This document shows, piece after piece, positions 289 to 26,594 of a stretch of 64,000 bases of DNA. How positions within the stretch are numbered: position 1 is the stretch's first letter; each line of letters starts with the position of its first letter. Position numbers and translations under genes: made by a program. The notes beneath the pieces were generated by a model. The model did no database searches. It saw only the letters and a list, made by a program, of their open reading frames with translations, and was not told the origin of the DNA. This stretch comes from Streptomyces alboniger (lineage in GTDB: Bacteria > Actinomycetota > Actinomycetes > Streptomycetales > Streptomycetaceae), in assembly GCF_008704395.1 (NCBI RefSeq), contig NZ_CP023695.1, positions 4,030,001 through 4,094,000 of the forward strand, given 5' to 3'.

Positions 289-575
289 AGGTGCTTCACC
301 CCGTCCGGGATGTCGTAGAACGTCGGGTGGCGGTAGGGCTTGTCGCCCGCCGGTTCGAAGAAGGAGTCCTTCTCGTCCGGCGATGAGGCGGTGATCGCCG
401 TAGACGGCACGACCCAGAGGGAGATGCCCTCGCTCCTGCGGGTGTACAGATCGCGGGCGTTGCGCAAGGCCATCTCCGCGTCCGGGGCGTGCAGGCTGCC
501 GGCGTGGGTGTGGGAGAGCCCGCGACGGGAGCGCACGAAGACCTCCCACAGCGGCCACTCGGTCGAGCTGCTCAT
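285..575 (-). CDS. paaB: PaaB, phenylacetyl-CoA epoxidase small subunit
   Basis: A 96-residue protein of the usual PaaB length. PaaB bridges PaaA/PaaC heterodimers in the epoxidase complex and has no catalytic residues. Recognisable family sequence includes [20 protein letters not shown] near the N-terminus, the central [12 protein letters not shown] and the terminal [16 protein letters not shown]. The ATG at 575 overlaps the end of paaA (stop at 572-574), and its own stop overlaps the paaC start, so the three subunits are made from one mRNA by coupled translation. An open frame continues upstream without a supported start; the MSSSTEW start fits both the length and the overlap. Confidence 0.96.
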
Positions 576-1579
576 GCTGTCGCCTTTCCGTGCTTCGCGG
601 CATGGGCGGCCGCGGCCTCCCGGACCCAGGCGCCCTCCTCGTGGGCGCGCCTGCGCTGGGTGATGCGCTGGTCGTTGCAGGGGCCGTTGCCCTTGAGGAC
701 GTCCCAGAACTCGGTCCAGTCGATCGGGCCGAAGTCGTAGTGCCCCCGCGATTCGTTCCACACCAGGTCCGGGTCGGGGAGGGTGAGGCCGAGCGATTCG
801 GCCTGGGGGACGCAGATGTCCACGAAGCGCTGGCGCAACTCGTCGTTCGAATGGCGCTTGATCTTCCACGTCATCGACTGCTCGGAGTGCGAGGACTCGT
901 CGTCCGGCGGGCCGAACATCATCAGCGAGGGCCACCACCAGCGGTTCACCGCGTCCTGCGCCATCTCGTGCTGGGCCTCGGTGCCGCGGCTCAGGGCGAG
1001 CAGGGACTCGTACCCCTGGCGCTGGTGGAAGGACTCCTCCTTGCAGACGCGGACCATCGCACGGGCGTAGGGGCCGTAGGAACAGCGGCACAGCGGGACT
1101 TGGTTGGTGATCGCCGCGCCGTCCACGAGCCAGCCGATCGCGCCGACGTCCGCCCAGGTCAGCGTGGGGTAGTTAAAGATCGACGAGTACTTCTGACGGC
1201 CCGAGTGGAGCTTGTCGAGCAGCTCGTCGCGGCTGGTGCCGAGGGTCTCGGCGGCGCTGTAGAGATACAGGCCGTGTCCGGCCTCGTCCTGCACCTTCGC
1301 CATGAGGATCGCCTTGCGCCGCAGGGAGGGGGCGCGCGTGATCCAGTTGGCCTCCGGCTGCATGCCGATGATCTCGGAGTGCGCGTGCTGCGCGATCTGG
1401 CGCACCAGGGACGCGCGATAGGCGTCCGGCATCCAGTCGCGCGGCTCGATGCGCTCGTCGGCGGCGACCGCCTCGTCGAAGGCGGCCTGCTGCTCGGCCG
1501 TGCGCGCGGGCGGGGCCGCCTGGCGCGCCGCCTCGCCCGGCTCCGTCCCCGCCGCCTTGTGTGCGGCTGCTGTCGCCAT
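572..1579 (-). CDS. paaA: PaaA, phenylacetyl-CoA 1,2-epoxidase catalytic subunit
   Basis: A 335-residue ferritin-like diiron oxygenase that converts phenylacetyl-CoA into its ring 1,2-epoxide, committing it to the aerobic hybrid degradation route. The diiron helices are visible as KVQDEAGHG and [12 protein letters not shown] (ExxH-type metal ligands), and the C-terminal block [20 protein letters not shown] is typical of PaaA. About 45 Ala-rich residues precede the conserved domain. The ATG at 1579 follows a GAGGGGGA ribosome site. It is the first gene of the operon; 33 bp upstream of its start codon lies a 14-bp palindrome shared with the paaN/paaH and bkd promoters, so repression by the PaaR-type TetR in this window is likely. 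Confidence 0.97.
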
Positions 1580-1611: not shown

Positions 1612-1625
1612 ACCGATCGTTCGGT
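1612..1625. promoter_or_regulatory. Putative PaaR operator upstream of paaA
   Basis: ACCGATCGTTCGGT, a palindrome with perfect 5-bp arms (ACCGA/TCGGT), embedded in a longer run of ACCG/CGGT half-sites. It is the exact reverse complement of the site at 6443-6456. Position and arms suit a TetR-family repressor; the paaR gene is nearby. Binding itself is inferred. Confidence 0.75.
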
Positions 1626-1763
1626 TCGTTTGAATTCAATGGTGCGGCGCGCCGCCATAAGGTGTCAACCCTGTGGATAACTTCGCGAACACTGTGCGCG
1701 ACGGGCAGGCCTGAGTACCGTTCCGGCGGCAGGGTTCGGAGCGGGTACGGGGAACGGGGCGGA

Positions 1764-2618
1764 ATGGACGGGTACGAGGAGGGCTCCGGCGGCGGGCCCG
1801 CCGGTCCCGAGGGGCCAGAGGGGCCTGAGGGGCTCGGGAGACCTGAGGGGCCTGTCGGCAGCCCGGAAACCGTGCCGGAAGCGCCACGCGGAACCGCACT
1901 GGACGCGCCGCCCGGAACCGCCCCGGAAGCCCCGCCCGGAACCGCCCCGGAAGCCCGCGTCGGCATCGCCGGGCTCAAGCTCGGCTACCAGATCGCCGCG
2001 GCCTGCGCCCTCGCGCTCATCACCGTGGCCTCGTGCGTCCATATAGGGATGCTCTTCTTCCACGTCGCCCCTTCGAACACCCTGACCAAGCAGCACGGCG
2101 ACGTGGTCGACGCGTGGGTCTATCCCGAGTTCGAGCAGAACTGGAAGCTCTTCGCCCCCAACCCGCTCCAGCAGAACATCGCGGTGCAGGCCAGGGCGGA
2201 GCTTCGTACGGCGGACGGAGGGGTGCGGACCACCGACTGGTACGACCTCTCCGCGCAGGACGGCGCCGCCATCGACGGCAGCCTGCTGCCCAGCCACACG
2301 CGGCAGAACGAACTCCGCCGCGCCTGGGACTTCTACGTCGGCTCGCACGACGCGCAGAATCGTCCCGTCGGCCCGCGCGGGCAGCTCTCCGAGCACTACA
2401 TCCGCCGCATCGCGCACATGCGGCTCGACCGGGAGCGGCCGGGCGGTGAGGGCGACGCCATCGCGCGCGTGCAGCTGCGCTCCAGGACCACGAACGTGCG
2501 GGCGCCGAAGTGGAGCGAGGAGAAGGTCTCCCCGAAGCCGGTCTACCGGCTGCTCCCGTGGTGGCCGGTGGCGCCCGGCGACCTGCCGCTCGCGGGTGCG
2601 GAAGGGACCACCAGGTGA
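1764..2618 (+). CDS. DUF5819-family membrane-anchored protein
   Basis: A 284-residue protein with a collagen-like, Gly/Pro/Glu-rich N-terminal tail (residues ~8-72, repeats such as PEGPEGPEG and PPGTAPEA). A single transmembrane segment follows (~residues 75-100, [20 protein letters not shown]), then an extracytoplasmic domain containing the family signature [18 protein letters not shown] recognise this as DUF5819; no biochemical function is known to me. Its stop overlaps the GTG of an HTTM (vitamin K-dependent carboxylase-like) membrane protein, implying coupled translation and a shared role in the membrane. The ATG at 1764 follows GGGGCGGA. The frame is open further upstream but would run through the paaA promoter. 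The function is unknown. Confidence 0.82.
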
Positions 2619-3856
2619 CCCGTCTCGAACGTCCGCTGGCGCAGGGGCTCAGCAAGGTCACCGGGTTCGCTCTCGGCCCGTACCAGACCGCGGTGGTCCG
2701 CATCGGATTCGCCGCCACCTGGCTGTTCTTCCTGCTGCGCGAACTGCCCCACCGCCACGAGATGTACGGTCCCGACGGCCCCTGGGGCTGGGACATGGCC
2801 CGGCAGCTCATCTCGGGCAACGGTGCCTTCACCGCGCTGATGTGGTCGGACGGGCGGATCTGGTTCGAGGTCGTCTACGCGCTCGCGATCCTGAGCAGTG
2901 CCCTGCTGGCGCTCGGCTGGCGCACGCGCACGATGTCCGTGCTCTTCATGATCGGTGTGCTGTCGTTGCAGAACCGCAGCATCTTCATCGGCGACGGCGG
3001 CGACAACGTCATCCACCTGATGGCGACCTACCTGGTGCTCACCCGGTGCGGTCAGGTCTGGTCGCTGGACGCGCGCCGTGCGGCACGCGCGCGTGCGGGA
3101 GACGTCGACCGGGTGGGGCCCGTCCTGTGGTGCGCCCTCGGGGTCGGCCTGTCCGCCGTGACGTTCATGGGAGAGCTGAGCGGTGGATGGCTGCTGATCT
3201 TCTGGGGGCTGTGGCTGGTCCACGGCCTGTGGTGGGCGGTGGGGCGCCGTGCCCCGCACAGCGAGCTGCGCAAGCTGCTCGATGTCATCGCCAACCTCAC
3301 CCACAACGCGGGCCTACTCGTGATCATGGTCGAGGCCTGTCTGATCTACGCCACCGCGGGCTGGTACAAGATCCAGGGCAGCCGCTGGCAGGACGGTACG
3401 GCCGTCTACTACCCGCTGAACCTCGACTACTTCTCCCCGTGGCACGCCCTCTCCGAGCTGCTCTCGTCCAACGGTCTGATCCTGATGCTGGTGACGTACG
3501 GGACGGTCGCCGTGCAGGTCGCCTTCCCCTTCACCCTCTTCAACCGCCGGGTGAAGAACGTCCTGCTGGCAGCGATGATCTTCGAGCACGCCGTCATCGC
3601 CGTCGTCCTGGGGCTGCCGTTCTTCTCGCTCGCGATGATCACGGCCGACGCGGTGTTCCTGCCGGAGTCGTTCCTGCGGCGCGTGGGCGGCTGGGTGGCA
3701 CGCGCGCGTGGAGCACTGATTTCCCGTACGCCTCTCTCCCGTACGCCTCTCTCCCGCTTGGCGCTCCGGGACCTTACGCCGTCGCGGCAGCAGCGTCCCG
3801 CGGGCCGGCGGGACGAGGAGCCCTCCGAGCACGCGCGCGTAGGCTTCACCCCATGA
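2615..3856 (+). CDS. HTTM-domain integral membrane protein (VKGC-like)
   Basis: A 413-residue polytopic membrane protein of the HTTM family, the membrane module related to vitamin K-dependent gamma-glutamyl carboxylase. About seven to eight hydrophobic helices can be traced between residues ~18 and ~365. The family features GYxxQ-like loop material are represented by LSLQNRSIFIGDGGDNVIHL and a central AGWYKIQGSRWQDGTAVYY. There is no large lumenal carboxylase domain, so carboxylase activity cannot be assumed. The last ~45 residues are Arg/Pro-rich with a short repeat (SRTPLSRTPLSRLAL). The GTG at 2615 overlaps the DUF5819 stop, and its own stop overlaps the TrmH-family start, so three genes form one tightly coupled unit. 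DUF5819 is the likely partner; the substrate is unknown. Confidence 0.85.
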   Translation: MTRLERPLAQGLSKVTGFALGPYQTAVVRIGFAATWLFFLLRELPHRHEMYGPDGPWGWDMARQLISGNGAFTALMWSDGRIWFEVVYALAILSSALLALGWRTRTMSVLFMIGVLSLQNRSIFIGDGGDNVIHLMATYLVLTRCGQVWSLDARRAARARAGDVDRVGPVLWCALGVGLSAVTFMGELSGGWLLIFWGLWLVHGLWWAVGRRAPHSELRKLLDVIANLTHNAGLLVIMVEACLIYATAGWYKIQGSRWQDGTAVYYPLNLDYFSPWHALSELLSSNGLILMLVTYGTVAVQVAFPFTLFNRRVKNVLLAAMIFEHAVIAVVLGLPFFSLAMITADAVFLPESFLRRVGGWVARARGALISRTPLSRTPLSRLALRDLTPSRQQRPAGRRDEEPSEHARVGFTP

Positions 3857-4632
3857 ACAGGACGGACGCGGTGGGCCCCGACGCCGCCGTGCGCGCCTGG
3901 CGCGCGCTCGCCGACACCTCCGTGCTGCTCGACGGCTTCCACGCGATCAAGCACGCGCTGCGCTTCGACGCACGGGTGCCGGTCGCGCTGACCGGTGACA
4001 GGGCCGAGGTGCTGGCCCTCGCGGACGAGCTGGCGCCGGACGTGAGGGACGCGCTGGACGCGCTCCTCGTGGAGGTCCCCGAGGAGCGGCTGCGCGCGCT
4101 GGTGCCGCGGCTGCACCCCACCGCGACGGCCGCCCTGGCAGTACGCCCTTCGCGCGCGGCCAATCTCGATGCGCTGGGCCGCATGCCGAGGACCGCGCCG
4201 GTCGTGGTGCTCGACGACCCCCGCAATCTGGGCAACGCCGGGGCGGTGATCCGGCTCGCCGCCGGGTTCGGCGCGACCGGTGTCGTCACGACCGGGACGC
4301 TCGACCCCTGGCACCCCACGGTCGTACGGGGTGGTGCGGGGCTGCACTTCGCGACGGCCGTGGAGCGGATGGACATCGCCGGACTGCCGCCGGGGCCGGT
4401 GTTCGCCCTCGACGCGGAGGGCGACGACATCCGGGGGCTGAAGCTCCCGGACGACGCGGTGCTCGCCTTCGGGTCCGAGCGCAGCGGCCTGTCGGCGGAG
4501 CTGCGGGAACGGGCCGATCACTTGGTCTCCCTGCCGATGCGCCCCCAGGTCTCCAGCTACAACCTGGCGACGAGTGTCGGCATGGCGCTCTTCCACTGGT
4601 CGGCGGGCAGGCCTCCGGGCCTGGAGACCTGA
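3853..4632 (+). CDS. TrmH/SpoU-family RNA 2'-O-methyltransferase
   Basis: A 259-residue SPOUT-class methyltransferase that would transfer a methyl group from S-adenosylmethionine to a ribose 2'-OH of tRNA or rRNA. The three SpoU motifs are present: LDDPRNLGNAGAVIRLA (motif 1, ~residues 117-133), AFGSERSGLS (motif 2) and LPMRPQVSSYNLATSVGMAL (motif 3, cofactor knot). An N-terminal substrate-binding region of ~100 residues precedes them. The specific RNA target cannot be read from sequence. The ATG at 3853 overlaps the HTTM stop (ATGA). There is no obvious functional link to the two membrane genes ahead of it. Confidence 0.93.
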   Translation: MNRTDAVGPDAAVRAWRALADTSVLLDGFHAIKHALRFDARVPVALTGDRAEVLALADELAPDVRDALDALLVEVPEERLRALVPRLHPTATAALAVRPSRAANLDALGRMPRTAPVVVLDDPRNLGNAGAVIRLAAGFGATGVVTTGTLDPWHPTVVRGGAGLHFATAVERMDIAGLPPGPVFALDAEGDDIRGLKLPDDAVLAFGSERSGLSAELRERADHLVSLPMRPQVSSYNLATSVGMALFHWSAGRPPGLET

Positions 4633-4660
4633 GCCCGCCGGGTCACGCTCCGCGCGCGGG

Positions 4661-6352
4661 TCACGCGTCCTTGCGGACCTCCACCACGCGGAAGCGGTTG
4701 GCGACGAACGCGCCGTCGCACAGCGCGGCGTTCGCCGCGGGGTTGCCGCCCGAGCCGTGGAAGTCCGAGAACGCCGCCGTCTGGTTCACATAGACCCCGC
4801 CCGTGAGGTTCAGCGACAGCTGGGCGCACTCCTCCAGGCAGGTCTCCTCGATGGCCGTGGAGACCTCTTCCGAGGTGGTGTACGCCCCTACGGTCATCGC
4901 TCCCTTGTCGCGCACCGTGCGGCGCAACAGCTCCACAGCGTCGGCGGCGGAGTCGACGGCGACCGCGAAGGAGACCGGGCCGAAGCACTCGCTGAGGTAG
5001 GCCGACTCGGCGTCCGGCTTCGCGCCGTCCAGCTTGACGATCACCGGCGTGCGCACCACGGCGTCGGGGAAGTCGGGGTTCGTGATCGTCCTTGAGGGGA
5101 GGGCCACTTCGCCGAGGCCCGCGGCAGCCTCCAGGCGGGTCTTCACGTCCGGGTTGACCAGCGCGCCCAGGATGCCGTTCGCCCGGGCGTCGTCGCCCAG
5201 GAGGCCGCTCACCGAGGCCGCGAGGTCGGCCACCACGTCGTCGTACGACTTGGCTCCGGCGTCCGTCTCGATGCCGTCGCGCGGGATGAGGAGGTTCTGC
5301 GGGGTGGTGCACATCTGGCCGCTGTAGAGGGACAGGGAGAAGGCGAGGTTGGCCAGCATTCCCTTGTAGTTGTCCGTCGAGTCGACCACGACCGTGTTGA
5401 CGCCGGCCTTTTCCGTGTAGACCTGCGCCTGGCGGGCGTTGGCCTCGAGCCAGTCGCCGAACGAGGTCGATCCCGTGTAGTCGATGATCTTGATCTCGGG
5501 GCGCACGGCGAGCGTCTTGGCGATCCCCTCGCCGGGCCGCTCGGCGGCCAGGCAGACCAGGTTCGGGTCGAAGCCCGCCTCCGCGAGGACCTCACGGGCG
5601 ATCCGGACCGTGAGCGCGAGCGGCAGCACCGCGCGCGGGTGGGGCTTGACCAGGACGGGGTTGCCGGTCGCGAGCGAGGCGAAGAGGCCCGGGTAGCCGT
5701 TCCACGTAGGGAAGGTGTTGCAGCCGATCAGGAGTGAGATGCCGCGCGGCACGGGCGTGAACCGCTTGCTCAGGGCGAGGGGGTCGCGCTTGCCCTGGGG
5801 CTTGTGCCACTCGGCGGTGCCGGGCGTGCGGGTCTGCTCCGCATAGGCGTACGCGATCGCTTCCAGGCCGCGGTCCTGGGCATGCGGGCCGCCCGCCTGG
5901 AAAGCCATCATGAAGGCCTGCCCGCTGGTGTGCATGACCGCGTGCGCCATCTCGTGCGTGCGGGCGCTGATCCGCGCCAGGATCTCCAGGCTGACCATCG
6001 CGCGCGTCTCCGCGCCCGCCTCGCGCCAGGCGCGCATTCCGGCGCGCATGGCGGGCAGCAGCGTGTCGATGTCCGGGTGGGGGTACGTGATCCCCAACTC
6101 CGGGCCGTACGGAGAGACTTCGCCGCCGACCCAGTCGTCCGTGCCGGGCTGGTCGAGGTCGAAGCGGGCGCCCTGGAGGGCGTCGAAAGCGGCTTTGCCC
6201 TCGGGCAGGCTCAGGCTGCCGTCCTCCCCGTACGCCTTGGGGTGCTCGGGGTGCGGGGACCAGTACGCGCGCGTGCTGATGGTCTCCAGCGCCTGATCGA
6301 GGGTGGACCGGTGCTTGGCGATCAGCTGGTGCGCGGTGAGTTCGGCGGCCAT
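4661..6352 (-). CDS. paaN: PaaN, aldehyde dehydrogenase of phenylacetate degradation
   Basis: A 563-residue aldehyde dehydrogenase-superfamily protein matching the Gram-positive PaaN type, which lacks the hydratase domain of the longer E. coli PaaZ. It should oxidise the open-chain semialdehyde made after ring cleavage in the paa pathway. ALDH features include the NAD-binding region GNPVLVKPHPRAVLPLALT, the segment IDYTGSTSFGDWLE and the catalytic cysteine in YSGQMCTTPQN. The C-terminal FSDFHGSGGNPAAN is typical of PaaN. The ATG at 6352 is preceded by GAGGAG about 11 bases upstream. It is divergent from paaH across a 194-bp region holding a perfect PaaR-type palindrome. Confidence 0.94.
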   Translation of the reverse strand: MAAELTAHQLIAKHRSTLDQALETISTRAYWSPHPEHPKAYGEDGSLSLPEGKAAFDALQGARFDLDQPGTDDWVGGEVSPYGPELGITYPHPDIDTLLPAMRAGMRAWREAGAETRAMVSLEILARISARTHEMAHAVMHTSGQAFMMAFQAGGPHAQDRGLEAIAYAYAEQTRTPGTAEWHKPQGKRDPLALSKRFTPVPRGISLLIGCNTFPTWNGYPGLFASLATGNPVLVKPHPRAVLPLALTVRIAREVLAEAGFDPNLVCLAAERPGEGIAKTLAVRPEIKIIDYTGSTSFGDWLEANARQAQVYTEKAGVNTVVVDSTDNYKGMLANLAFSLSLYSGQMCTTPQNLLIPRDGIETDAGAKSYDDVVADLAASVSGLLGDDARANGILGALVNPDVKTRLEAAAGLGEVALPSRTITNPDFPDAVVRTPVIVKLDGAKPDAESAYLSECFGPVSFAVAVDSAADAVELLRRTVRDKGAMTVGAYTTSEEVSTAIEETCLEECAQLSLNLTGGVYVNQTAAFSDFHGSGGNPAANAALCDGAFVANRFRVVEVRKDA

Positions 6353-6442
6353 GGCAGGACCAACTCCTCGTCGGTCAGCTCTCCATCGAGCTGGCGAGTG
6401 GGCGGGAACAGTGGGCAGGGACTGGCTGACAGAGCTAGAGTA

Positions 6443-6456
6443 ACCGAACGATCGGT
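6443..6456. promoter_or_regulatory. Putative PaaR operator between paaN and paaH
   Basis: ACCGAACGATCGGT, the exact reverse complement of the paaA-proximal site. It lies 91 bp from each start codon, so one repressor could control both divergent transcripts. Binding by the adjacent TetR (8055-8648) is inferred from position and recurrence. Confidence 0.78.
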
Positions 6457-6546
6457 CGGGACAAGAGGGTCCGTCAAACCTGTGGACAACTTCTCCGGGC
6501 CACCCCGAACCCGGCGGTCGGCGGACCGTGCGGGAGGATCGCGAAC

Positions 6547-8058
6547 ATGACAGCACTCGAGCTCAGCAGCGCCGTTGCCGTGGTGGGCACCGGAACCATG
6601 GGGCAGGGCATCGCACAGGTCGCCCTGGTGGCCGGCCACCCCGTGCGGCTGTACGACGCGGCCCCCGGCCGGGCGAAGGCGGCGGCCGACGCGATCGGCG
6701 CCCGTCTTGACCGGCTCGTCGAGAAGGGCAGGCTCACCGCCGCGGACCGTACCGCCGCGGCCGCCCGCCTCACGCCCGCCGACAGCCTCGCGGAGCTGGC
6801 GGGCTGCGGTCTCGTCATCGAGGCCGTCCTGGAGCAACTGGACGTGAAGCAGCGGCTGTTCCAGGACCTGGAGGACGTCGTCGGCGGCGACTGTCTGCTG
6901 GCCACCAACACCTCCTCCCTCTCCGTCACCGCCATCGCGGGCGCCCTGGAGAAGCCGGGCCGTTTCGTGGGCCTGCACTTCTTCAACCCCGCGCCGCTGC
7001 TTCCCCTCGTCGAGGTCGTCAGCGGCTTCGCGACCGACGAGACGGCGGCCACGCGCGCGTACGAGACCGCGAAGGCCTGGGGCAAGAGGCCGGTGCGCTG
7101 CGCGGACACCCCCGGCTTCATCGTCAACCGCGTCGCCAGGCCCTTCTACGCCGAGGCGCTGCGCCTGCACGAAGAGCGCGTCGCCGACCCGGCGACGATC
7201 GACGCGGTCCTGCGCGAGTGCGGCGGCTTCAAGATGGGCCCCTTCGAGCTGACCGACCTCATCGGCCAGGACGTCAACGAATCCGTCACGCGCTCCGTGT
7301 GGGAGTCGTTCTTCCAGGACCCCAAGTTCACCCCCTCGCTCGCCCAGCGCCGGCTCGTCGAGTCACGCCGCCTCGGCCGGAAGTCGGGCCGGGGCTGGTA
7401 CGCGTACGGGGATGACGCCCCACGCCCGGAACCGCACACCGCCGGACCCGAGCGGGCCCCGGAGTCCGTCACCGTCCACGGTGACCTCTTCGCGGCGGAA
7501 GCCCTCCCGGGCCTCATCCGGGACGCCGGCATCCGCGTCGAGCACGGCACGGACGTTCCGAGCTATCCAGGCTCCATCGAGCTGCCCGGCGGCGCACGGC
7601 TCGCACCGGCCGACGGGACGTCCCCCGACGCCGCGGCCGAGCCCACGATCCACTTCGACCTCGCCCTGGACTACCGCACCGCGACCCGCATCGCCCTCGC
7701 CCCCTCCGGCAGGGTGGGCGAGCAGGCGCTGACGGAGGCGATCGGCCTCTTCCAGGCGCTCGGCAAGAAGGTCAGCGTCATCGGGCCCGCCCCGGGGATG
7801 ATCGTCGCCCGCACGGTGTGGATGCTGATCGACTTCGCCCTGGACGCCGTCGGCCGCGAGGTGGCCAACGCCGAGGGCGTCGACGCCGCCATGCGCCTCG
7901 GCGTCAACTACCCACTCGGGCCGATCGAATGGGGTCGCCGCCTCACCGCGTACCGCGTGGCCGAGGCGCTGGATCTCCTGAACGACGAGTACCCCACCGG
8001 GCGTTACGCACCCTCCCAGGCCCTGCGGCGCCAGGCCGTGCGAGAGGAGTACTCATGA
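6547..8058 (+). CDS. paaH: PaaH, 3-hydroxyacyl-CoA dehydrogenase (tandem C-terminal domains)
   Basis: A 503-residue NAD-dependent 3-hydroxyacyl-CoA dehydrogenase, expected to oxidise 3-hydroxyadipyl-CoA to 3-oxoadipyl-CoA late in phenylacetate degradation. The Rossmann motif GTGTMG is at residues 14-19 and the family NTSSLSVTAIA and GLHFFNPAPLLPLVEVV follow. The first 3HCDH C-terminal domain is at ~185-285 (DTPGFIVNRV, GPFELTDLIGQDV). A linker of ~110 residues and a second 3HCDH domain (~405-495, NYPLGPIEWGRRL) follow, as in many PaaH proteins. The ATG at 6547 has GGGAGGAT upstream. The stop overlaps the start of the TetR gene, tying repressor synthesis to the pathway transcript. Confidence 0.94.
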   Translation: MTALELSSAVAVVGTGTMGQGIAQVALVAGHPVRLYDAAPGRAKAAADAIGARLDRLVEKGRLTAADRTAAAARLTPADSLAELAGCGLVIEAVLEQLDVKQRLFQDLEDVVGGDCLLATNTSSLSVTAIAGALEKPGRFVGLHFFNPAPLLPLVEVVSGFATDETAATRAYETAKAWGKRPVRCADTPGFIVNRVARPFYAEALRLHEERVADPATIDAVLRECGGFKMGPFELTDLIGQDVNESVTRSVWESFFQDPKFTPSLAQRRLVESRRLGRKSGRGWYAYGDDAPRPEPHTAGPERAPESVTVHGDLFAAEALPGLIRDAGIRVEHGTDVPSYPGSIELPGGARLAPADGTSPDAAAEPTIHFDLALDYRTATRIALAPSGRVGEQALTEAIGLFQALGKKVSVIGPAPGMIVARTVWMLIDFALDAVGREVANAEGVDAAMRLGVNYPLGPIEWGRRLTAYRVAEALDLLNDEYPTGRYAPSQALRRQAVREEYS

Positions 8059-8648
8059 CCACCGCCCGGCGGGACACCTACACCCCGGAGACGCTGCTCA
8101 GCGTCGCCGTCCGGGTCTTCAACGAGCGTGGCTACGACGGCACGTCCATGGAGCACCTCTCCAAGGCGGCCGGCATCTCCAAGTCCTCGATTTACCACCA
8201 CGTGGCGGGCAAGGAGGAACTGCTGCGCCGCGCGGTGAGCCGGGCGATCGACGGGCTCTTCGGGATCCTCGCCGAGGAGCACGCGCGCGTGGGCAGCGCC
8301 GTCGAGCGCCTTGAATACGTCACGCGCCGCACGGTGGAGGTCCTGGTCGCCGAGGTGCCCTATGTGACGCTGCTGCTGCGCGTGCGCGGCAACACGGACA
8401 CCGAGCGGTGGGCCCTGGAGCGGCGCAGGGAATTCGACCAGCAGGTGGCCGAGCTGCTGAAGGAGGCCGTCGCGGACGGCGACCTGCGCTCCGACGTCGA
8501 GCTGCGCCTGGCCACCCGGCTGCTCTTCGGAATGATCAACTCCATCGTGGAGTGGTACCGGCCGGAGAGCCGGGGAGCGGCCAACGGCGCGGAGATCGCC
8601 GACGCCGTCGTGCGGCTGGCCTTCGCGGGGCTGCGCACCGACCGCTGA
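8055..8648 (+). CDS. paaR: TetR-family repressor, PaaR type
   Basis: A 197-residue TetR regulator. The N-terminal HTH is seen at ~residues 10-58 (FNERGYDGTSMEHLSKAAG, then ISKSSIYHHVAGKEELL). The remaining ~140 residues form the ligand-binding helical domain. It starts inside the paaH stop (ATGA), so it is the second gene of a paaH-paaR operon. In actinomycetes PaaR represses paa genes and is relieved by phenylacetyl-CoA. Three near-identical palindromes in this window are its likely targets, one of them in its own operon promoter, giving autoregulation. The symbol rests on family resemblance and context rather than on a diagnostic residue. Confidence 0.83.
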   Translation: MTTARRDTYTPETLLSVAVRVFNERGYDGTSMEHLSKAAGISKSSIYHHVAGKEELLRRAVSRAIDGLFGILAEEHARVGSAVERLEYVTRRTVEVLVAEVPYVTLLLRVRGNTDTERWALERRREFDQQVAELLKEAVADGDLRSDVELRLATRLLFGMINSIVEWYRPESRGAANGAEIADAVVRLAFAGLRTDR

Positions 8649-8688
8649 ACCTCGGAGTCGGCACGACGGCCGCTCGGGCGGCCGTCGG

Positions 8689-9258
8689 TCAGCTCTCGGG
8701 CTCCATGTCGTCCTCCTCGAAGACCAGCAACGTACGCGTGCTGAGGACTTCGGGGATGGACTGGAGCCGGGTGAGCACCAGCTCGCGCAGGGCGCGGTTG
8801 TCCGGCGTGTGCACCAGGAGCAGTACGTCGAAGTCGCCGCTTACCAGTGCGATATGGGACGCACCCGGGAGTGCGCGCAGATGCTCGCGCACTGTACGCC
8901 AGGTGTTCTGGACGATCTTGAGCGTGATGTAGGCGGAGGCGCCCTGCCCGGCGCGCTCGTGGTTGATCCGCGCCCCGAAGCCCCGGATGACGCCGTCGTC
9001 GATGAGGCGGTTGATGCGCGCGTACGCGTTGGCCCGCGACACATGGACGCGTTCGGCCACGGAGCGTATCGATGCGCGACCGTCCGTGTGCAGGATCTGG
9101 AGGATGTCGCGGTCGATGGCGTCCAGGGGTCGAGGATCCGGCACCCGGGCCTCCGGTACTCGGGGCTCTGGCACCCGGGGCTCCGGTACTCGGGATTCCG
9201 GTACTCGGGGCTCCGGTGGGCCGCCGGCGTGCTGGTCGGCCATTCGTTCAGATGCCAT
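8689..9258 (-). CDS. bkdR: Lrp/AsnC-family regulator, BkdR-like, with a pentapeptide-repeat N-tail
   Basis: A 189-residue Lrp/AsnC regulator. Residues ~45-95 hold the winged HTH (LDAIDRDILQILHTDGRASI, then VSRANAYARINRLIDDGVI); the RAM/ligand domain follows to the end. It is divergent from a keto acid dehydrogenase operon, the arrangement of the branched-chain regulator BkdR. Residues ~15-44 are near-identical pentapeptides (PEPRV/PESRV/PEARV/PDPRP) encoded by 15-bp tandem repeats at about 9130-9225, a disordered extension absent from ordinary Lrp proteins. The ATG at 9258 follows GGGAGG; an internal ATG at 9243 is less favoured. Its own control probably uses the inverted repeat at 9298-9331. 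Confidence 0.83.
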   Translation of the reverse strand: MASERMADQHAGGPPEPRVPESRVPEPRVPEPRVPEARVPDPRPLDAIDRDILQILHTDGRASIRSVAERVHVSRANAYARINRLIDDGVIRGFGARINHERAGQGASAYITLKIVQNTWRTVREHLRALPGASHIALVSGDFDVLLLVHTPDNRALRELVLTRLQSIPEVLSTRTLLVFEEDDMEPES

Positions 9259-9297
9259 GTCCCCCCGCCTCCCTACCATGGACGTACTGCATCCATC

Positions 9298-9331
9298 CCA
9301 GGCTGTGCAGAACCGTTTGTCCACAGCCTGG
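9298..9331. promoter_or_regulatory. Inverted repeat between bkdR and bkdA
   Basis: Perfect 10-bp arms CCAGGCTGTG (9298-9307) and CACAGCCTGG (9322-9331) separated by 14 bp in the divergent promoter region. Spacing of about one and a half turns between arm centres suits an Lrp-type dimer or multimer. The left arm sequence recurs at 24101-24110 upstream of the second bkd operon. Confidence 0.5.
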
Positions 9332-9359
9332 AGGTGCCTGTAGCCAAAATGTGCCGACG

Positions 9360-9373
9360 ACCGAACAATCGGT
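9360..9373. promoter_or_regulatory. PaaR-type palindrome upstream of the first bkd operon
   Basis: ACCGAACAATCGGT differs by one central base from the site at 6443-6456. It lies 76 bp upstream of the E1alpha ATG. It implies that the phenylacetate repressor also controls this dehydrogenase; this is inferred, not shown. Confidence 0.68.
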
Positions 9374-9448
9374 AGGTGAGGCGCATCACATCGCTGCGCC
9401 TCTTTTGCCGCTCCCACGAGGAGTCCGCTTCCCCCAGGAGGTGCCGTC

Positions 9449-10612
9449 ATGACGGTCATGGAGCAGCGGGGCGCCTACCGGCCGACCCCGCCCCCCGCTT
9501 GGCAGCCCAGGACCGACCCCGCGCCGCTGCTGCCGGACGCCGAGCCGTACCGCGTCCTTGGCACGGAGGCCGCCGGGAAGGCCGACCCGGGGCTGCTGCG
9601 CCGGCTCTACGCGGAGCTGGTGCGCGGACGCCGTTACAACACGCAGGCGACGGCACTCACGAAGCAGGGCAGGCTCGCGGTCTACCCCTCGAGCACCGGC
9701 CAGGAGGCCTGCGAGATCGCCGCAGCGCTGGTGCTGGAGGAGCGGGACTGGCTCTTTCCCAGCTACCGGGACACGCTCGCCGTGCTCACCCGCGGGCTCG
9801 ATCCCGTGAGTGCCCTGACGCTGCTGCGCGGCGACTGGCACACGGGATACGACCCGCGCGAGCACCGCATAGCGCCCCTGTGCACCCCACTCGCCACCCA
9901 GCTGCCGCACGCCGTGGGCCTGGCGCACGCCGCCCGTCTCAAAGGCGACGACGTGGTCGCCCTCGCCATGGTCGGCGACGGCGGCACCAGTGAGGGCGAC
10001 TTCCACGAGGCGTTGAACTTCGCCGCGGTGTGGCGTGCGCCCGTGGTCTTCCTCGTGCAGAACAACGGCTTCGCGATCTCCGTGCCGCTCGACAGGCAGA
10101 CCGCCGCCCCCTCCTTGGCCCACAAGGCCGTCGGGTACGGCATGCCGGGACGCCTGGTGGACGGCAACGACGTGGCCGCGATGCACGAGGTCCTCGGCGA
10201 GGCGGTCGCCCGCGCGCGGGAGGGCGGCGGGCCGACCCTGGTCGAGGCGATCACGTACCGCATGGAAGCCCACACGAACGCCGACGACGCCACGCGCTAC
10301 CGCCACGACGACGAGGTCGCGGCCTGGCGTGACCACGACCCGGTCCTGCTCCTGGAGCGGGAGCTGGTGGAGCGCGGCCTCCTGGACGACGACACCAGGC
10401 GACGCGCGAGCGAGGACGCCGAGGCCATGGCGGCCGACCTGCGCGAACGCATGAACAAGGATCCCCTCCTGGACCCCATGGACCTCTTCACGCACGTGTA
10501 CGCCGAGCAGACCTCGCAACTACGGGAGCAGGCGGCGCAGTTGCGGGCCGAGCTGGAAGCAGCCGCGGAAGAGGCGGAAGCGGCGGAGTCGGCGAAGGGG
10601 GAGACGCGATGA
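9449..10612 (+). CDS. bkdA: Branched-chain-type 2-oxoacid dehydrogenase E1 alpha
   Basis: A 387-residue thiamine diphosphate-dependent E1 alpha subunit. The TPP motif begins MVGDGGTSEGDFHEALNFAA and ends with the paired Asn of FLVQNNG. E1 decarboxylates a 2-oxoacid and reductively acylates the E2 lipoyl group. The C-terminus is a short coiled-coil-like Glu/Ala tail. The ATG at 9449 follows AGGAGG. Its stop overlaps the E1 beta start. I use the Streptomyces avermitilis naming (bkdABC first, bkdFGH about 12 kb downstream), which I recall and which fits the lengths and spacing here. The 2-oxoacid substrate is not readable; the PaaR-type site upstream raises phenylpyruvate as a candidate besides the branched-chain acids. 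Confidence 0.88.
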   Translation: MTVMEQRGAYRPTPPPAWQPRTDPAPLLPDAEPYRVLGTEAAGKADPGLLRRLYAELVRGRRYNTQATALTKQGRLAVYPSSTGQEACEIAAALVLEERDWLFPSYRDTLAVLTRGLDPVSALTLLRGDWHTGYDPREHRIAPLCTPLATQLPHAVGLAHAARLKGDDVVALAMVGDGGTSEGDFHEALNFAAVWRAPVVFLVQNNGFAISVPLDRQTAAPSLAHKAVGYGMPGRLVDGNDVAAMHEVLGEAVARAREGGGPTLVEAITYRMEAHTNADDATRYRHDDEVAAWRDHDPVLLLERELVERGLLDDDTRRRASEDAEAMAADLRERMNKDPLLDPMDLFTHVYAEQTSQLREQAAQLRAELEAAAEEAEAAESAKGETR

Positions 10613-11625
10613 CCACGGTCGCGGCGAAGCCGGCCACCAAACCGGCCACCATGGCGCAGGCGCTCGGACGAGCGCTGCGCGACTCCATGGCCGAGGACTC
10701 CTCCGTGCACGTCCTGGGTGAGGACGTCGGGGCCCTCGGTGGTGTCTTCCGGGTCACCGACGGGCTCACCAAGGAGTTCGGCGAGGACCGTTGTACGGAC
10801 ACCCCGCTGGCCGAGGCGGGCATCCTCGGGACGGCGGTCGGCATGGCGATGTACGGCCTGCGGCCCGTCGTCGAGATGCAGTTCGACGCCTTCGCCTATC
10901 CCGCCTTCGAGCAGCTGATCTCGCATGTGGCGCGCATGCGCAACCGCACCAGGGGCGCGATGCCGCTGCCCATCACCGTGCGCGTGCCCTACGGCGGCGG
11001 GATCGGCGGCGTCGAACACCACAGCGACTCATCCGAGGCGTACTACATGGCGACGCCGGGCCTGCACGTCGTCGCGCCCGCCACGGTCGCCGACGCGTAC
11101 GGCCTGCTGCGGGCCTCCATCGCCTCCGACGACCCGGTCGTCTTCCTGGAGCCGAAGCGCCTGTACTGGTCCAAGGCGGACTGGAACCCGGACGCGCCCC
11201 AGAGCGTTGAACCGATAGGCCGCGCGGTGGTGCGGCGCCCCGGGCGCAGCGCCACGCTCATCACGTACGGCCCGTCCGTGCCCGTCTGCCTGGAGGCGGC
11301 CGAGGCCGCCCGCGCCGAGGGCTGGGATCTCGAAGTGGTCGACCTGCGCTCGCTGGTGCCCTTCGACGACGAGACGGTCGCCGCGTCCGTACGACGCACG
11401 GGCCGGGCTGTCGTCGTGCACGAGTCGAGCGGCTTCGGCGGGCCCGGCGGGGAGATCGCCGCGCGGGTCACCGAGCGGTGCTTCCATCACTTGGAGGCGC
11501 CGGTGCTGCGGGTCGCGGGGTTCGACATCCCGTATCCGCCGCCGATGCTGGAGAAGCACCATCTGCCGGGCGTCGACCGGATCCTGGACGCGGTCGCGCG
11601 GTTGCAGTGGGAGGCGCAGAGCTGA
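10609..11625 (+). CDS. bkdB: Branched-chain-type 2-oxoacid dehydrogenase E1 beta
   Basis: A 338-residue E1 beta subunit, partner of the preceding E1 alpha in an alpha2beta2 tetramer. Family sequence is clear: VLGEDVGALGGVFRVTDGL, DTPLAEAGILGTAVGMAM, RVPYGGGIGGVEHHS and the C-terminal transketolase-like region VVVHESSGFGGPGGEIA. The ATG at 10609 overlaps the E1 alpha stop, and the last base of its own stop is the first base of the E2 ATG. The operon is therefore tightly coupled and stoichiometric. The first ~15 residues (TTVAAKPATKPATMAQ) form a short extra tail relative to the second copy at 25603. Confidence 0.92.
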   Translation: MTTVAAKPATKPATMAQALGRALRDSMAEDSSVHVLGEDVGALGGVFRVTDGLTKEFGEDRCTDTPLAEAGILGTAVGMAMYGLRPVVEMQFDAFAYPAFEQLISHVARMRNRTRGAMPLPITVRVPYGGGIGGVEHHSDSSEAYYMATPGLHVVAPATVADAYGLLRASIASDDPVVFLEPKRLYWSKADWNPDAPQSVEPIGRAVVRRPGRSATLITYGPSVPVCLEAAEAARAEGWDLEVVDLRSLVPFDDETVAASVRRTGRAVVVHESSGFGGPGGEIAARVTERCFHHLEAPVLRVAGFDIPYPPPMLEKHHLPGVDRILDAVARLQWEAQS

Positions 11626-13064
11626 TGGCGCAGGTGTTGGAGTTCAAGCTGCCCGACCTCGGCGAGGGGCTGACGGAGGCCGAGATCGTCCGCTGGCTCG
11701 TCGAGGTCGGGGACGTCGTCGCCGTCGACCAGCCGGTCGTCGAGGTCGAGACGGCCAAGGCGATGGTCGAAGTGCCGTGTCCCTACGGAGGCGTGGTCAC
11801 GGCCCGATTCGGTGAGGAAGGCGCGGAACTGCCCGTCGGGGCGCCGCTGTTGACCGTCGCTGTGGGGGCTCCCGCCGATCCTGGCGCGCCGGTCGACAGT
11901 CACACCCCCGACGATGGAGGCGCACCGGTCGGGGTCCGTGCGCCGGAGGAGCCCGCAGAGCGGGCGCTGCAAGCGGCGGCCGAGGAGTCTTCCGGCAATG
12001 TCCTGGTCGGTTACGGCACCGCGGCCGCGCCTGCCCGCCGCAGGAGGGTGCGGCCCACCCGGCCGGCCTTTGAGGTGCCCGCCGCGCTCTCCGGAGAGGC
12101 GACCTCCGGAGGGTCGGAAAGTCCCGCCACGCGCGTGGACGGCCCTGTGCCGGTGATCTCTCCGCTCGTACGCAGGCTGGCGCGGGAGCATGACGTGGAT
12201 CTGCGCGCGCTGGCGGGTTCGGGCCCCGACGGGCTCATCACGCGGGCCGACGTCGAGGCGGCCATCGGCGCGGGCCCGGCGGGCACGGCGGGCACACGTG
12301 AGGCCGTGGCCTCCGAGGAGCGCCGCCAGGTGGAGGCGGGGCAGGAGCCCACGCGCGCGGGCCTGGCGTCCCGGCATCCGCTGACCGGCGTCCGGGGCCT
12401 CGTCGCGGACAAGATGTCCCGCAGCAGGCGCGAGATACCGGAGGCCACCTGCTGGGTCGACGCCGACGCGACCGAGCTGCTCGCCGCCCGCGCCGCCATG
12501 AACGCCGCTGTGACGGAGCGCGACGGCCAGAAGGTGTCGCTGCTCGCGTTGTTCGCCCGCATCAGCGTGGCCGCGCTCGGCCGCTTCCCGGTGCTCAACT
12601 CCAGCGTGGACATGGAGGCGCGGGAGGTGCGCCGATTCGCCGACATCCACCTCGGGTTCGCCGCGCAGACCGATCGTGGCCTGGTCGTCCCCGTCGTACG
12701 GCACGCCCAGACACGGACGACGGAGTCGATCAACGCCGAGCTGATCCGGCTCACCGAGGAGGGGCGGGCCGGGAAGCTGACCCCCCGCGACCTCACCGGG
12801 GGGACGTTCACGCTGAACAACTACGGCGTGTTCGGGGTCGACGGCTCCACGCCGATCATCAACCACCCCGAGGCGGCCATGCTCGGCGTGGGCCGGATCG
12901 TGCCGAAGCCGTGGGTGCACCAGGGGGAGTTGGCGGTGCGGCATGTGGTCCAGCTGTCGCTCACGTTCGACCACCGGGTGTGCGACGGTGGTACGGCGGG
13001 CGGCTTCCTGCGGTACGTGGCGGACTGTGTCGAACAGCCGGCGTTGCTGCTGCGGTCGGTGTGA
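11625..13064 (+). CDS. bkdC: 2-oxoacid dehydrogenase E2, lipoyl acyltransferase
   Basis: A 479-residue dihydrolipoamide acyltransferase. Domains in order: one lipoyl domain (~residues 3-78, lipoylated Lys in VEVETAKAMVEV), a flexible Ala/Pro/Glu linker, the peripheral-subunit-binding domain (~167-205, ISPLVRRLAREHDVDLRALA), another linker, and the catalytic domain (~250-479). The active-site motif DHRVCDGG supplies the catalytic His and Asp, and NNYGVFGVDGSTPI is typical. It forms the core of the complex and passes the acyl group to CoA. No E3 gene is in the operon, so a shared lipoamide dehydrogenase must serve it. The ATG at 11625 shares one base with the E1 beta stop. Confidence 0.91.
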   Translation: MAQVLEFKLPDLGEGLTEAEIVRWLVEVGDVVAVDQPVVEVETAKAMVEVPCPYGGVVTARFGEEGAELPVGAPLLTVAVGAPADPGAPVDSHTPDDGGAPVGVRAPEEPAERALQAAAEESSGNVLVGYGTAAAPARRRRVRPTRPAFEVPAALSGEATSGGSESPATRVDGPVPVISPLVRRLAREHDVDLRALAGSGPDGLITRADVEAAIGAGPAGTAGTREAVASEERRQVEAGQEPTRAGLASRHPLTGVRGLVADKMSRSRREIPEATCWVDADATELLAARAAMNAAVTERDGQKVSLLALFARISVAALGRFPVLNSSVDMEAREVRRFADIHLGFAAQTDRGLVVPVVRHAQTRTTESINAELIRLTEEGRAGKLTPRDLTGGTFTLNNYGVFGVDGSTPIINHPEAAMLGVGRIVPKPWVHQGELAVRHVVQLSLTFDHRVCDGGTAGGFLRYVADCVEQPALLLRSV

Positions 13065-24397: not shown

Positions 24398-25600
24398 GTG
24401 ACCGTGGAGAGCACCGCCGCGCGCAAACCGCGCAGCAGCAGTACCGGCGGCGGCAAGCGCGCCGCAAGCGCCAAGAAGGCCGCTCCGCAGAAAAGCACGG
24501 AGCCCGAGCTCGTACAGCTGCTGACGCCCGAGGGCAAGCGGGTCAAGAGCGCGAAGAACGCCGTGTACGACGCGTACGTCGCCGGCATCACGAGCGAGGA
24601 GCTGCGCGGCCTGTACCGCGACATGGTCCTCACCCGCCGCTTCGACGCCGAGGCCACCTCGCTCCAGCGCCAGGGCGAGCTGGGCCTGTGGGCCTCGCTG
24701 CTCGGCCAGGAGGCCGCGCAGATCGGTTCCGGCCGGGCCACCCGCGACGACGACTACGTGTTCCCCACGTACCGCGAGCACGGCGTCGCCTGGTGCCGCG
24801 GGGTCGACCCGACGAACCTGCTCGGCATGTTCCGCGGCGTGAACAACGGCGGCTGGGACCCGAACAGCAACAACTTCCACCTGTACACGATCGTCATCGG
24901 CTCGCAGACCCTGCACGCCACCGGCTACGCGATGGGCGTGGCCAAGGACGGCGCCGACTCGGCCGTGATCGCGTACTTCGGGGACGGTGCCTCCAGCCAG
25001 GGGGACGTCGCTGAATCGTTCACCTTCTCCGCGGTCTACAACGCCCCCGTCGTGTTCTTCTGCCAGAACAACCAGTGGGCCATCTCCGAGCCGACCGAGA
25101 AGCAGACCCGTGTGCCGCTCTACCAGCGCGCCCAGGGCTACGGCTTCCCCGGTGTGCGGGTCGACGGCAACGACGTGCTCGCCGTGCTCGCCGTCACCAA
25201 GTGGGCCCTGGAGCGGGCGCGTACGGGCGAGGGCCCGGCGCTGATCGAGGCGTTCACTTACCGCATGGGCGCGCACACCACGTCCGACGACCCGAGCAAG
25301 TACCGCAACGACGACGAGCGGGTGGCGTGGGAGGCCAAGGACCCGATTCTGCGGCTGCGGGCGTTCCTGGAGTCCGAAGGCCACGCGGATGAGGGATTTT
25401 TCGCGGAACTCGACGACGAGAGCGAAGCGTTGGGCAAGCGAGTGCGAGAGGTGGTGCGGGCGATGCCGGATCCGGATCTGATGGCGATCTTCGAGAATGT
25501 CTACGCGGACGGGCACGCGCTCGTGGACGAGGAGCGCGCCCAGTTCGCCGCGTACCAGGCGTCGTTCGCCGACGCCCCCGCGGGCGGGGAGGTCAAGTAA
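24398..25600 (+). CDS. bkdF: Branched-chain 2-oxoacid dehydrogenase E1 alpha, second copy
   Basis: A 400-residue E1 alpha subunit. A basic Ser/Lys/Ala-rich tail (~residues 1-40, e.g. RKPRSSSTGGGKRAASAKKA) precedes the fold. The TPP motif runs from YFGDGASSQGDVAESFTFSA to the Asn pair of FFCQNNQ, and the phosphorylation-loop-like YRMGAHTTSDDPSKYR is present. With E1 beta it decarboxylates 2-oxoacids of Val, Leu and Ile, giving branched starters for fatty acids and polyketides. The name follows S. avermitilis bkdFGH as I recall it (E1 alpha about 406 residues). GTG at 24398 has GGAGGA upstream. It is clearly distinct from the copy at 9449. Confidence 0.87.
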   Translation: MTVESTAARKPRSSSTGGGKRAASAKKAAPQKSTEPELVQLLTPEGKRVKSAKNAVYDAYVAGITSEELRGLYRDMVLTRRFDAEATSLQRQGELGLWASLLGQEAAQIGSGRATRDDDYVFPTYREHGVAWCRGVDPTNLLGMFRGVNNGGWDPNSNNFHLYTIVIGSQTLHATGYAMGVAKDGADSAVIAYFGDGASSQGDVAESFTFSAVYNAPVVFFCQNNQWAISEPTEKQTRVPLYQRAQGYGFPGVRVDGNDVLAVLAVTKWALERARTGEGPALIEAFTYRMGAHTTSDDPSKYRNDDERVAWEAKDPILRLRAFLESEGHADEGFFAELDDESEALGKRVREVVRAMPDPDLMAIFENVYADGHALVDEERAQFAAYQASFADAPAGGEVK

Positions 25601-25602
25601 CC

Positions 25603-26583
25603 ATGACTGTCCAGAAACTGCCCATCGCCAAGGCGATCAACGAATCGCTGCGCACGGCGCTGGAGAACGACCCCAAGGTCCTCATCATGGGCGAGGACGT
25701 CGGCAAGCTCGGCGGCGTCTTCCGGGTGACGGACGGGCTCCAGAAGGACTTCGGCGAGGAGCGGGTCATCGACACCCCGCTCGCCGAGTCCGGCATCGTC
25801 GGCACGGCCATCGGCCTCGCCCTGCGCGGGTACCGCCCGGTGGTGGAGATCCAGTTCGACGGCTTCGTCTTCCCCGCCTACGACCAGATCGTCACGCAGC
25901 TGGCGAAGATGCACGCCCGCGCGCTCGGCAAGATCAAGATGCCGGTCGTCATCCGCATTCCGTACGGCGGTGGCATCGGCGCCGTCGAGCACCACAGCGA
26001 GTCGCCCGAGACGCTGTTCGCGCACGTGGCGGGCCTGAAGGTGGTCTCTCCCTCGAACTCGGCGGATGCCTACTGGATGATGCAGCAGGCCATCCAGAGC
26101 GACGACCCAGTGATCTTCTTCGAGCCCAAGCGGCGGTACTGGGACAAGGGCGAGGTCGACAAGGAGTCGATCCCCGGGCCCCTGCACAAGGCCACCGTCG
26201 CCCGCGAGGGCAGCGACCTCACGCTCGCGGCGTACGGCCCGATGGTGAAGGTCTGCCTGGAGGCGGCCGCGGCGGCCGAGGAGGAGGGCAAGTCCCTGGA
26301 GGTCCTGGACCTGCGCTCCATGTCGCCGATCGACTTCGACGCCGTGCAGGCCTCGGTGGAGAGGACCCGGCGGCTCGTCGTCGTGCACGAGGCCCCGGTC
26401 TTCCTGGGCACGGGCGCGGAGATCGCCGCGCGCATCACCGAGCGGTGCTTCTACCACCTGGAGGCCCCGGTGCTGAGGGTCGGCGGCTACCACGCCCCGT
26501 ATCCGCCGGCGCGCCTAGAGGAGGAGTACCTGCCGGGCCTCGACCGGGTGCTCGACGCCGTCGACCGCTCGCTGGCGTACTGA
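25603..26583 (+). CDS. bkdG: Branched-chain 2-oxoacid dehydrogenase E1 beta, second copy
   Basis: A 326-residue E1 beta subunit, two bases after the E1 alpha stop. Characteristic sequence: GEDVGKLGGVFRVTDGLQKD, DTPLAESGIVGTAIGLALRG, RIPYGGGIGAVEHHSESPE and VVVHEAPVFLGTGAEIAARI. It is close to the first-cluster E1 beta over its whole length but lacks the extra N-terminal tail. Heterodimer interchange between the clusters cannot be excluded. Confidence 0.92.
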   Translation: MTVQKLPIAKAINESLRTALENDPKVLIMGEDVGKLGGVFRVTDGLQKDFGEERVIDTPLAESGIVGTAIGLALRGYRPVVEIQFDGFVFPAYDQIVTQLAKMHARALGKIKMPVVIRIPYGGGIGAVEHHSESPETLFAHVAGLKVVSPSNSADAYWMMQQAIQSDDPVIFFEPKRRYWDKGEVDKESIPGPLHKATVAREGSDLTLAAYGPMVKVCLEAAAAAEEEGKSLEVLDLRSMSPIDFDAVQASVERTRRLVVVHEAPVFLGTGAEIAARITERCFYHLEAPVLRVGGYHAPYPPARLEEEYLPGLDRVLDAVDRSLAY

Positions 26584-26594
26584 GGGAGAGGGTC

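Follow-up and report, generated by a model that had tools for sequence, protein, structure and literature searches.

A conserved PaaR-type site very likely places a 2-oxo acid dehydrogenase operon in the phenylacetate regulon of Streptomyces

At the left end of a stretch of 64,000 nucleotides from the chromosome of Streptomyces alboniger (G000, C1:4030001-4094000; hereafter the window), the genes of phenylacetate (paa) catabolism are followed by an operon encoding the E1alpha, E1beta and E2 components of a 2-oxo acid dehydrogenase complex. The locus raises the question whether PaaR, the TetR-type repressor of the paa genes, also governs the dehydrogenase. A sequence-only reading had proposed this from three palindromes, the first two exact reverse complements of each other and the third differing by one base, and a check of the sequence found them as it described:

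1612-1625, minus strand: operator 1, ACCGATCGTTCGGT on the plus strand, equal to ACCGAACGATCGGT on the minus strand; ahead of paaA.
6443-6456, plus strand: operator 2, ACCGAACGATCGGT; between the divergent paaN and paaH-paaR.
9360-9373, plus strand: operator 3, ACCGAACAATCGGT; between bkdR and the E1/E2 operon.

The coordinates also agree with the placement given there (before paaA, between paaN and paaH, before the bkd-type E1/E2 operon). Operator 1 is 32 bp from the assumed start of paaA and operator 3 is 75 bp from E1alpha (9449). Because the Lrp-type gene bkdR (8689-9258, minus strand) stands between paaR and operator 3, the latter lies in the gap of two divergent genes. The sequence-only reading had mentioned neither this gene, nor a fourth site before paaK, nor the DnaA-box-like 10-mer that stands beside each of the three sites.

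In a search of the whole genome (7,962,786 bases) the tight pattern ACCGAWCRWTCGGT occurred at four places, all of which precede paa genes or E1, and its reversed control at none. The fourth site, ACCGATCATTCGGT, is 27 bp ahead of the assumed start of paaK (L004; TIGR02155, 701 bits) at 7.48 Mb, where an earlier in-frame ATG would overlap the site. The relaxed pattern ACCGANNNNTCGGT was found at 17 places in the genome versus 7 for its control, thus the chance of finding one in a given 190-bp gap is about 0.0004. With three mismatches allowed the count in the window was at chance level (32 found, 28.3 expected), hence only close matches are informative. One relaxed-pattern place near the window, at 4025804, falls inside a long open reading frame (5217-6260 of L178) and was dropped as a chance match. 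PaaR-like sites with at most two mismatches were also present ahead of seven of the eight fetched paaA copies that are not beside paaR; the eighth (L206) is divergent, with 64 percent identity.

The sequence-only reading had named loss of the third site in close relatives that keep the other two as a refutation, and we observed the opposite. Eighty loci were fetched with PaaR as the query, hence they are selected for PaaR; with the window they make 81. Site 3 was present in all 81, always as ACCGAACAATCGGT and in the same orientation, and site 2 in 80, the remaining one reading ACCGAATGGTCGGT. Site 1, counted only where there was a local paaA match, was present in 52 of 52; the other 29 loci had no such match, some of them because of contig ends. 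bkdR and E1alpha, on the other hand, lie inside the PaaR locus in 81/81. In 247 Streptomyces genomes drawn irrespective of the site, PaaR was found at E 1e-30 in 244 and the exact 14-mer of site 3 in 243, in single copy in all but one, whereas the reversed control occurred once in total; about 150 of the 14-mer places were listed, and the position before E1 was checked only in the loci read. The exact 14-mer is missing from G222, where the place reads ACCGAACAATCGCT with one base changed, and from G035, G114 and G149, which also lack PaaR. Since the canonical bkdR-E1 locus is gone from the latter three genomes as well, they represent co-loss of the block, not of the site. All 33 canonical E1alpha loci obtained in E1 searches (L085-L087, L100-L129; these may overlap the 80 PaaR loci) carry the site, as do the divergent Streptomyces loci L147-L149, and in G084 (L177), where the bkdR-E1-E2 block is about 12 kb from paaR, it is kept. 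The genome counts and the conservation together reject a chance palindrome, and the conservation of site 3 supports the claim that a PaaR site on a 2-oxo acid dehydrogenase extends the paa regulon: judged from the DNA, PaaR control of the E1/E2 operon is very likely. Operator 1 or a one-base variant of it persists in six loci without a local paaA match (L025, L027, L053, L056, L069 and L084; L028 is cut), where it may be a relic or serve another target.

The genes concerned are ordered paaC/paaB/paaA (minus strand), paaN (minus), paaH-paaR (plus), an Lrp/AsnC gene (minus) and E1alpha-E1beta-E2 (plus):

572-1579, minus strand: paaA, by family/profile match, followed by paaB (match 297-557) and paaC (from 186 down, running out of the window).
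4661-6352, minus strand: paaN (TIGR02288, 974 bits).
6547-8058, plus strand: paaH, first gene of the paaH-paaR unit (TIGR02279 below cut-off, PRK08268 above its cut-off).
8055-8648, plus strand: paaR, a TetR-family regulator of 197 amino acids (PDB 2IAI, SCO3833, E 9e-95).
8689-9258, minus strand: bkdR-type Lrp/AsnC regulator of 189 amino acids, start codon assumed; named by position and SCO3832.
9449-10612, plus strand: E1 alpha of a 2-oxo acid dehydrogenase (family models, structure matches).
10609-11625, plus strand: E1 beta (family models, structure matches).
11625-13064, plus strand: E2 with lipoyl, E3-binding and catalytic domains (domain models).

The TetR gene at 8055 had been proposed as the reader of the sites, and by position and operators it is indeed PaaR-like: paaH, paaN and paaA are all inside the same 8 kb as paaR, which overlaps paaH by 4 bases, and inverted repeats stand ahead of paa units including paaR's own (sites 1, 2 and the paaK site). 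The protein matches PF00440 (the TetR-type N-terminal helix-turn-helix, HTH) and PF17932 (C-terminal domain), both above the gathering score. Its nearest solved structure is 2IAI, SCO3833 of S. coelicolor, and the second nearest is 3VPR (E 5.7e-19), which we take to be the Thermus PaaR; the closest named relative by PaaR is Streptomyces sp. WAC 01529. The Lrp gene was named bkdR for its position and because SCO3832, the bkdR of S. coelicolor (PMC8176718; this and the other publications are cited from excerpts), adjoins SCO3833 by locus number.

Outside Streptomyces we accepted a site if it lay in the bkdR-E1 or pre-E1 gap with at most two mismatches (G254 and G255 were not fetched, and L146 is cut before the gap). 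L130, from family f2 of the same order, has the whole block with an exact site 3, and its paaA and paaN sites read ACCGAATGTTCGGT. L130 apart, the site was found in 1 of 27 outgroup loci. This one, L140 of family f3, contains paaN, paaR, E1alpha and E1beta without a bkdR match; paaR adjoins E1, and ACCGAACCTTCGGT stands ahead of E1. The other nine f3 loci (L131-L139) have bkdR and E1 but no site in the gap at this threshold, and the same holds for three f16 loci and for L150, L152, L154 and L156; L154 shows, by eye, a three-mismatch likeness of site 3 before E1, below the threshold. None of ten f17 loci (L157-L166; E1beta 79-83 percent identical) had the site or a bkdR match near E1, and no paaA above cut-off was found in their genomes; these loci stand next to Streptomyces in the E1beta tree. 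The site thus tracks the compact block of neighbouring paaR, bkdR and E1, not E1 or bkdR alone, nor every nearby paaR. As a separate observation, the f3 loci L133-L135 and L137-L139 contain a CCGAACAAAGAATCGGCATCACAC-like sequence in the bkdR-E1 gap, with half-sites resembling those of site 3 but spaced 4 bases wider.

Why should a phenylacetate repressor control a 2-oxo acid dehydrogenase? The presence of the site in nearly all Streptomyces genomes checked suggests that E1/E2, known as a supplier of antibiotic precursors, has a further role in channelling carbon from phenylalanine to phenylacetate catabolism. The solved chains nearest to E1 belong to pyruvate dehydrogenase (PDH), 2-oxo acid and branched-chain enzymes, and E1alpha passes a PDH model, thus the family models do not settle the substrate. 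Active-site residues of the human branched-chain keto acid dehydrogenase did not line up, and we make no substrate claim from the pocket. In the E1beta tree (48 rows; a row counts as near paa genes if a match above 120 bits to paaA, B, C, N, R or K is no more than 10 kb away) the clade of the second Streptomyces bkd operon (8 rows, support 100/100; copy in the window at 25624) has no member near paa genes, while in the other clade, which holds the first operon, 13 of 40 rows are near them; for the f16 and f17 rows "no paa genes" is based on stretches of 6-9 kb. Extra E1 copies were fetched from five Streptomyces (L141-L145), and three of the five adjoin paa genes. In L143, for example, the order is PaaN-like, Lrp, E1alpha, E1beta, E2, PaaN, a thiolase of the 3-oxoadipyl-CoA type, enoyl-CoA hydratase, PaaH-like, PaaG-like and PaaA, B, C. 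Altogether, non-canonical E1/E2 copies of the first operon's large E1beta clade stand within paa clusters in L142, L143, L144, L097 and L098, and the association of E1/E2 with the phenylacetyl-coenzyme A (phenylacetyl-CoA) pathway was found save for two of the five extra copies. A comparison at class level gave distances of 10-29 kb between paaA and E1beta in four genomes that do not belong to the order (G529, G380, G498, G361).

In G035 and G149 (loci L097 and L098) the sole copy of this E1 type heads an operon E1alpha-E1beta-E2-PaaG-like-PaaA-B-C-E. PaaN is present, and a search of the two genomes gave no PaaK above the cut-off (best E 2e-6 and 1e-8). With no recognisable PaaK, the only evident producer of phenylacetyl-CoA there is E1/E2, and the substrate used is probably phenylpyruvate. 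Conversion of phenylpyruvate to phenylacetyl-CoA was proposed for PglB/PglC of the pristinamycin pathway (PMC7089894, excerpt), therefore enzymes of this kind have been linked to this conversion before. Two side observations belong here. In L142, L143 and L144, Streptomyces have a second cluster of paa type, equipped with an Lrp gene, E1/E2 and PaaN-like genes of its own. The E1-E2-paaG-paaABCE operon of L097 and L098 (genes called by similarity in L097 and by family models in L098) is located beside a gene for a protein with an MmyB-like ligand domain and an HTH; it is possible that this operon belongs to a phenylacetyl-CoA or a tropone-type route.

From the sites, their conservation and their gene contexts, which were observed directly, we infer binding, repression, the effector and the substrate as follows. 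PaaR (8055-8648) would govern the paaA operon, paaN with the divergent paaH-paaR, paaK, and the E1alpha-E1beta-E2 operon (9449-13064). At the last of these it would bind 9360-9373, near the presumed transcription start. Phenylacetyl-CoA, as for PaaR elsewhere, would free the repressor, and rising levels would derepress paaA, paaN, paaH-paaR, paaK and E1/E2 together. The complex would oxidatively decarboxylate phenylpyruvate to phenylacetyl-CoA, probably besides branched-chain substrates, and phenylalanine could therefore enter the paa pathway without PaaK. The divergent bkdR would provide a second input, from branched-chain amino acids. We consider this model of four repressed units, release by phenylacetyl-CoA, conversion of phenylpyruvate and bkdR as second input probable as a whole. 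A sigma-70 consensus scan found no promoter in the bkdR-E1 gap, thus promoter positions were read by eye. On this reading a TAGCCAAAAT block that is conserved among near relatives stops 9 bp short of site 3; if this block is the -10 region, PaaR would cover the point where transcription begins, which would suit a TetR repressor. A perfect 8-bp inverted repeat, GAGGCGCA/TGCGCCTC (9378-9402), also follows the PaaR site closely, within the presumed leader of E1alpha.

Several points weigh against this interpretation. A central base sets site 3 apart from sites 1 and 2 in 81/81 loci, and for this reason the affinity of PaaR for site 3 may differ. The fit to the motif that the excerpt (PMC10933834) gives as 'putative' for PaaR of S. 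pristinaespiralis, AACGA-N4-TCGGT, is imperfect: counted by eye, site 1 matches with a shift of 4 bases, and there is one mismatch in site 2 and two in site 3. L139 has paaR and paaK about 7 kb from bkdR, and L156 has them 4-6 kb from bkdR, yet neither has a site before E1. The three PaaR-less Streptomyces genomes are no independent test, since the canonical locus is absent there; the place of PaaK in G035 and G149 could be taken by other CoA ligases; two of the five extra E1 copies (L141, L145) are without paa genes in the stretch fetched; and the published work, as excerpted, treats the operon as branched-chain (PMC8176718), as do older publications.

The lack of paa genes near the L141 and L145 copies also counts for the alternative that survives best, namely that the link between PaaR and the operon balances CoA esters, or tunes bkdR, and that phenylpyruvate is not a substrate. 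The linked regulator BkdR owes its name to a branched-chain dehydrogenase that it controls (PMC8176718, excerpt), and with site 3 lying 101 bp from where bkdR is assumed to start, this gene may itself be the target. What favours instead the simpler role of forming phenylacetyl-CoA is that this E1 clade repeatedly clusters with paa genes and that genomes lacking a recognisable PaaK have E1-E2-paaG-paaABCE operons, and we regard the alternative as less likely. Much less credible is that another TetR-family protein reads site 3. Streptomyces have many TetR genes, and the deviating central base, constant in every locus, would fit a different reader, but paaR is 0.7 kb from site 3 and belongs to the site 2 unit, no target of another class carries the tight pattern in the genome, and paaR remains close to E1 even in L130 and L140, which have differently spelled sites. 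That the 14-mer is conserved as a core promoter or as a BkdR or DnaA site is the least probable of all: near relatives do show good conservation of the upstream half of this gap, which contains a DnaA-box-like element and an inverted repeat, but the 14-mer differs from sites 1 and 2 at a single base and is exact in L130, L147 and L148 in spite of much more divergent surroundings.

With PaaR control of the operon as the preferred explanation, the remaining elements of the gaps can be considered:

9317-9326, plus strand: DnaA-box-like TTGTCCACAG, upstream of operator 3 and pointing to E1alpha; TTDTCCACAG in 80/80 loci.
6480-6489, minus strand: DnaA-box-like TTGTCCACAG, upstream of operator 2 in the paaN direction; TTDTCCACAG in 76/79 loci.
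1671-1680, minus strand: DnaA-box-like TTATCCACAG, upstream of operator 1 in the paaA direction; TTDTCCACAG in 52/55 loci.
9298-9331, no strand assigned: inverted repeat CCAGGCTGTGCAGAA/TTGTCCACAGCCTGG, 15-nucleotide arms, 87 percent complementary; candidate BkdR (Lrp) site.

The per-class counts exclude sites within 160 bp of a locus end. TTDTCCACAG occurs only three times in the window, once per PaaR site, and there is no other TTNTCCACA; the narrower TTRTCCACAG gives the same three places versus 0.05 expected (first-order Markov). In the 80 loci (1,504,533 bases) 232 of 237 occurrences of TTDTCCACAG have a PaaR site (no more than one mismatch) at 150 bp or less, and the spacing between box and site 3 is fixed at 43 bp, start to start, in 80/80. 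The box at 1671-1680 stands directly before a TTGACA. TTGTCCACA, the high-affinity DnaA box of S. coelicolor (PMC4285127, excerpt), is matched exactly at 9317 and 6481, while the sequence at 1672 is TTATCCACA.

Within the 324 kb scanned, boxes are most densely clustered between dnaA (3973608-3975560) and dnaN (from 3976493), hence the replication origin (oriC) is presumably there and the three PaaR sites would be 55-64 kb from it. TTRTCCACA has 10 places in 3.93-4.05 Mb (120 kb) as against one in the next 204 kb, and seven 20-kb slices elsewhere contained one TTNTCCACA in total. No DnaA-box-like 10-mer was found in the paaK stretch (L004), in L130, L140, L147 and L148, or upstream of the eight paaA copies not beside paaR; as these copies represent another type of paaA (64-77 percent identity), their lack of boxes is no proof of a position effect. 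The boxes may serve regulatory DnaA binding, act as titration sites, or be used by another protein. The repeat at 9298-9331 lies within the conserved block, and the box at 9317 forms half of it; that BkdR binds there is a guess. More speculatively, the bkdR-E1 promoter could be a three-way junction of PaaR, BkdR and DnaA, serving a complex that is equally a phenylpyruvate and a branched-chain dehydrogenase, with the boxes at the three PaaR promoters tying the catabolic block to replication or chromosome-copy control; we hold this only as a tentative idea.

A second E1/E2 operon in the window (24602-27968) is 41/56/37 percent identical to the first; the pattern search of the 64 kb found no PaaR site for it, and it is likewise without a close TTNTCCACA. 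Two closely similar copies of this second-type bkd operon, in opposite orientation, were seen in G114 (L099 6345-9005 and 10332-13852), one E1alpha match having an in-frame stop; neither paaA nor PaaR was found in that genome.

The operon supplies acyl-CoA precursors of Streptomyces polyketides and is a target of strain engineering (PMC8176718, excerpt). If our interpretation is true, an overlooked second repressor would offer a new handle on precursor supply, and a PaaK-independent route from phenylalanine to phenylacetyl-CoA would be relevant to producers of phenylglycine and tropolone compounds; the DnaA boxes pose a separate question on oriC-proximal promoters. The sequence-only reading knew of no earlier description of E1/E2 as a PaaR target, and this holds for the literature searched, which was partly excerpted and did not cover the original PaaR papers on S. 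pristinaespiralis and C. glutamicum; a search for work on SCO3833, or on PaaR and bkd in Streptomyces, found none.

It is instructive to compare the regulon with known systems. The Lrp-type BkdR likewise controls a 2-oxo acid dehydrogenase in S. coelicolor and S. albus; SCO3833 is its TetR neighbour by number in S. coelicolor, and the excerpt does not mention PaaR control (PMC8176718). PglB/PglC are pyruvate-dehydrogenase-like subunits of an antibiotic cluster (pristinamycin I), unlike the E1/E2 of the catabolic block described here (PMC7089894, excerpt). In the same genus, PaaR of S. pristinaespiralis (SSDG_03033) represses the paa genes, thus sparing phenylacetyl-CoA for L-phenylglycine, and the review account, as excerpted, names no E1/E2 target (PMC10933834). 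The PaaR proteins of Burkholderia cenocepacia, Corynebacterium glutamicum and Thermus thermophilus are likewise TetR repressors with inverted-repeat operators before paa units and phenylacetyl-CoA as effector, and the ACCGA-N4-TCGGT of this genome fits the Burkholderia operator (PMC9493321, excerpt). No dehydrogenase target is described for these three regulons in that excerpt, and what distinguishes the regulon of S. alboniger from them is the addition, very likely under PaaR, of a 2-oxo acid dehydrogenase operon.

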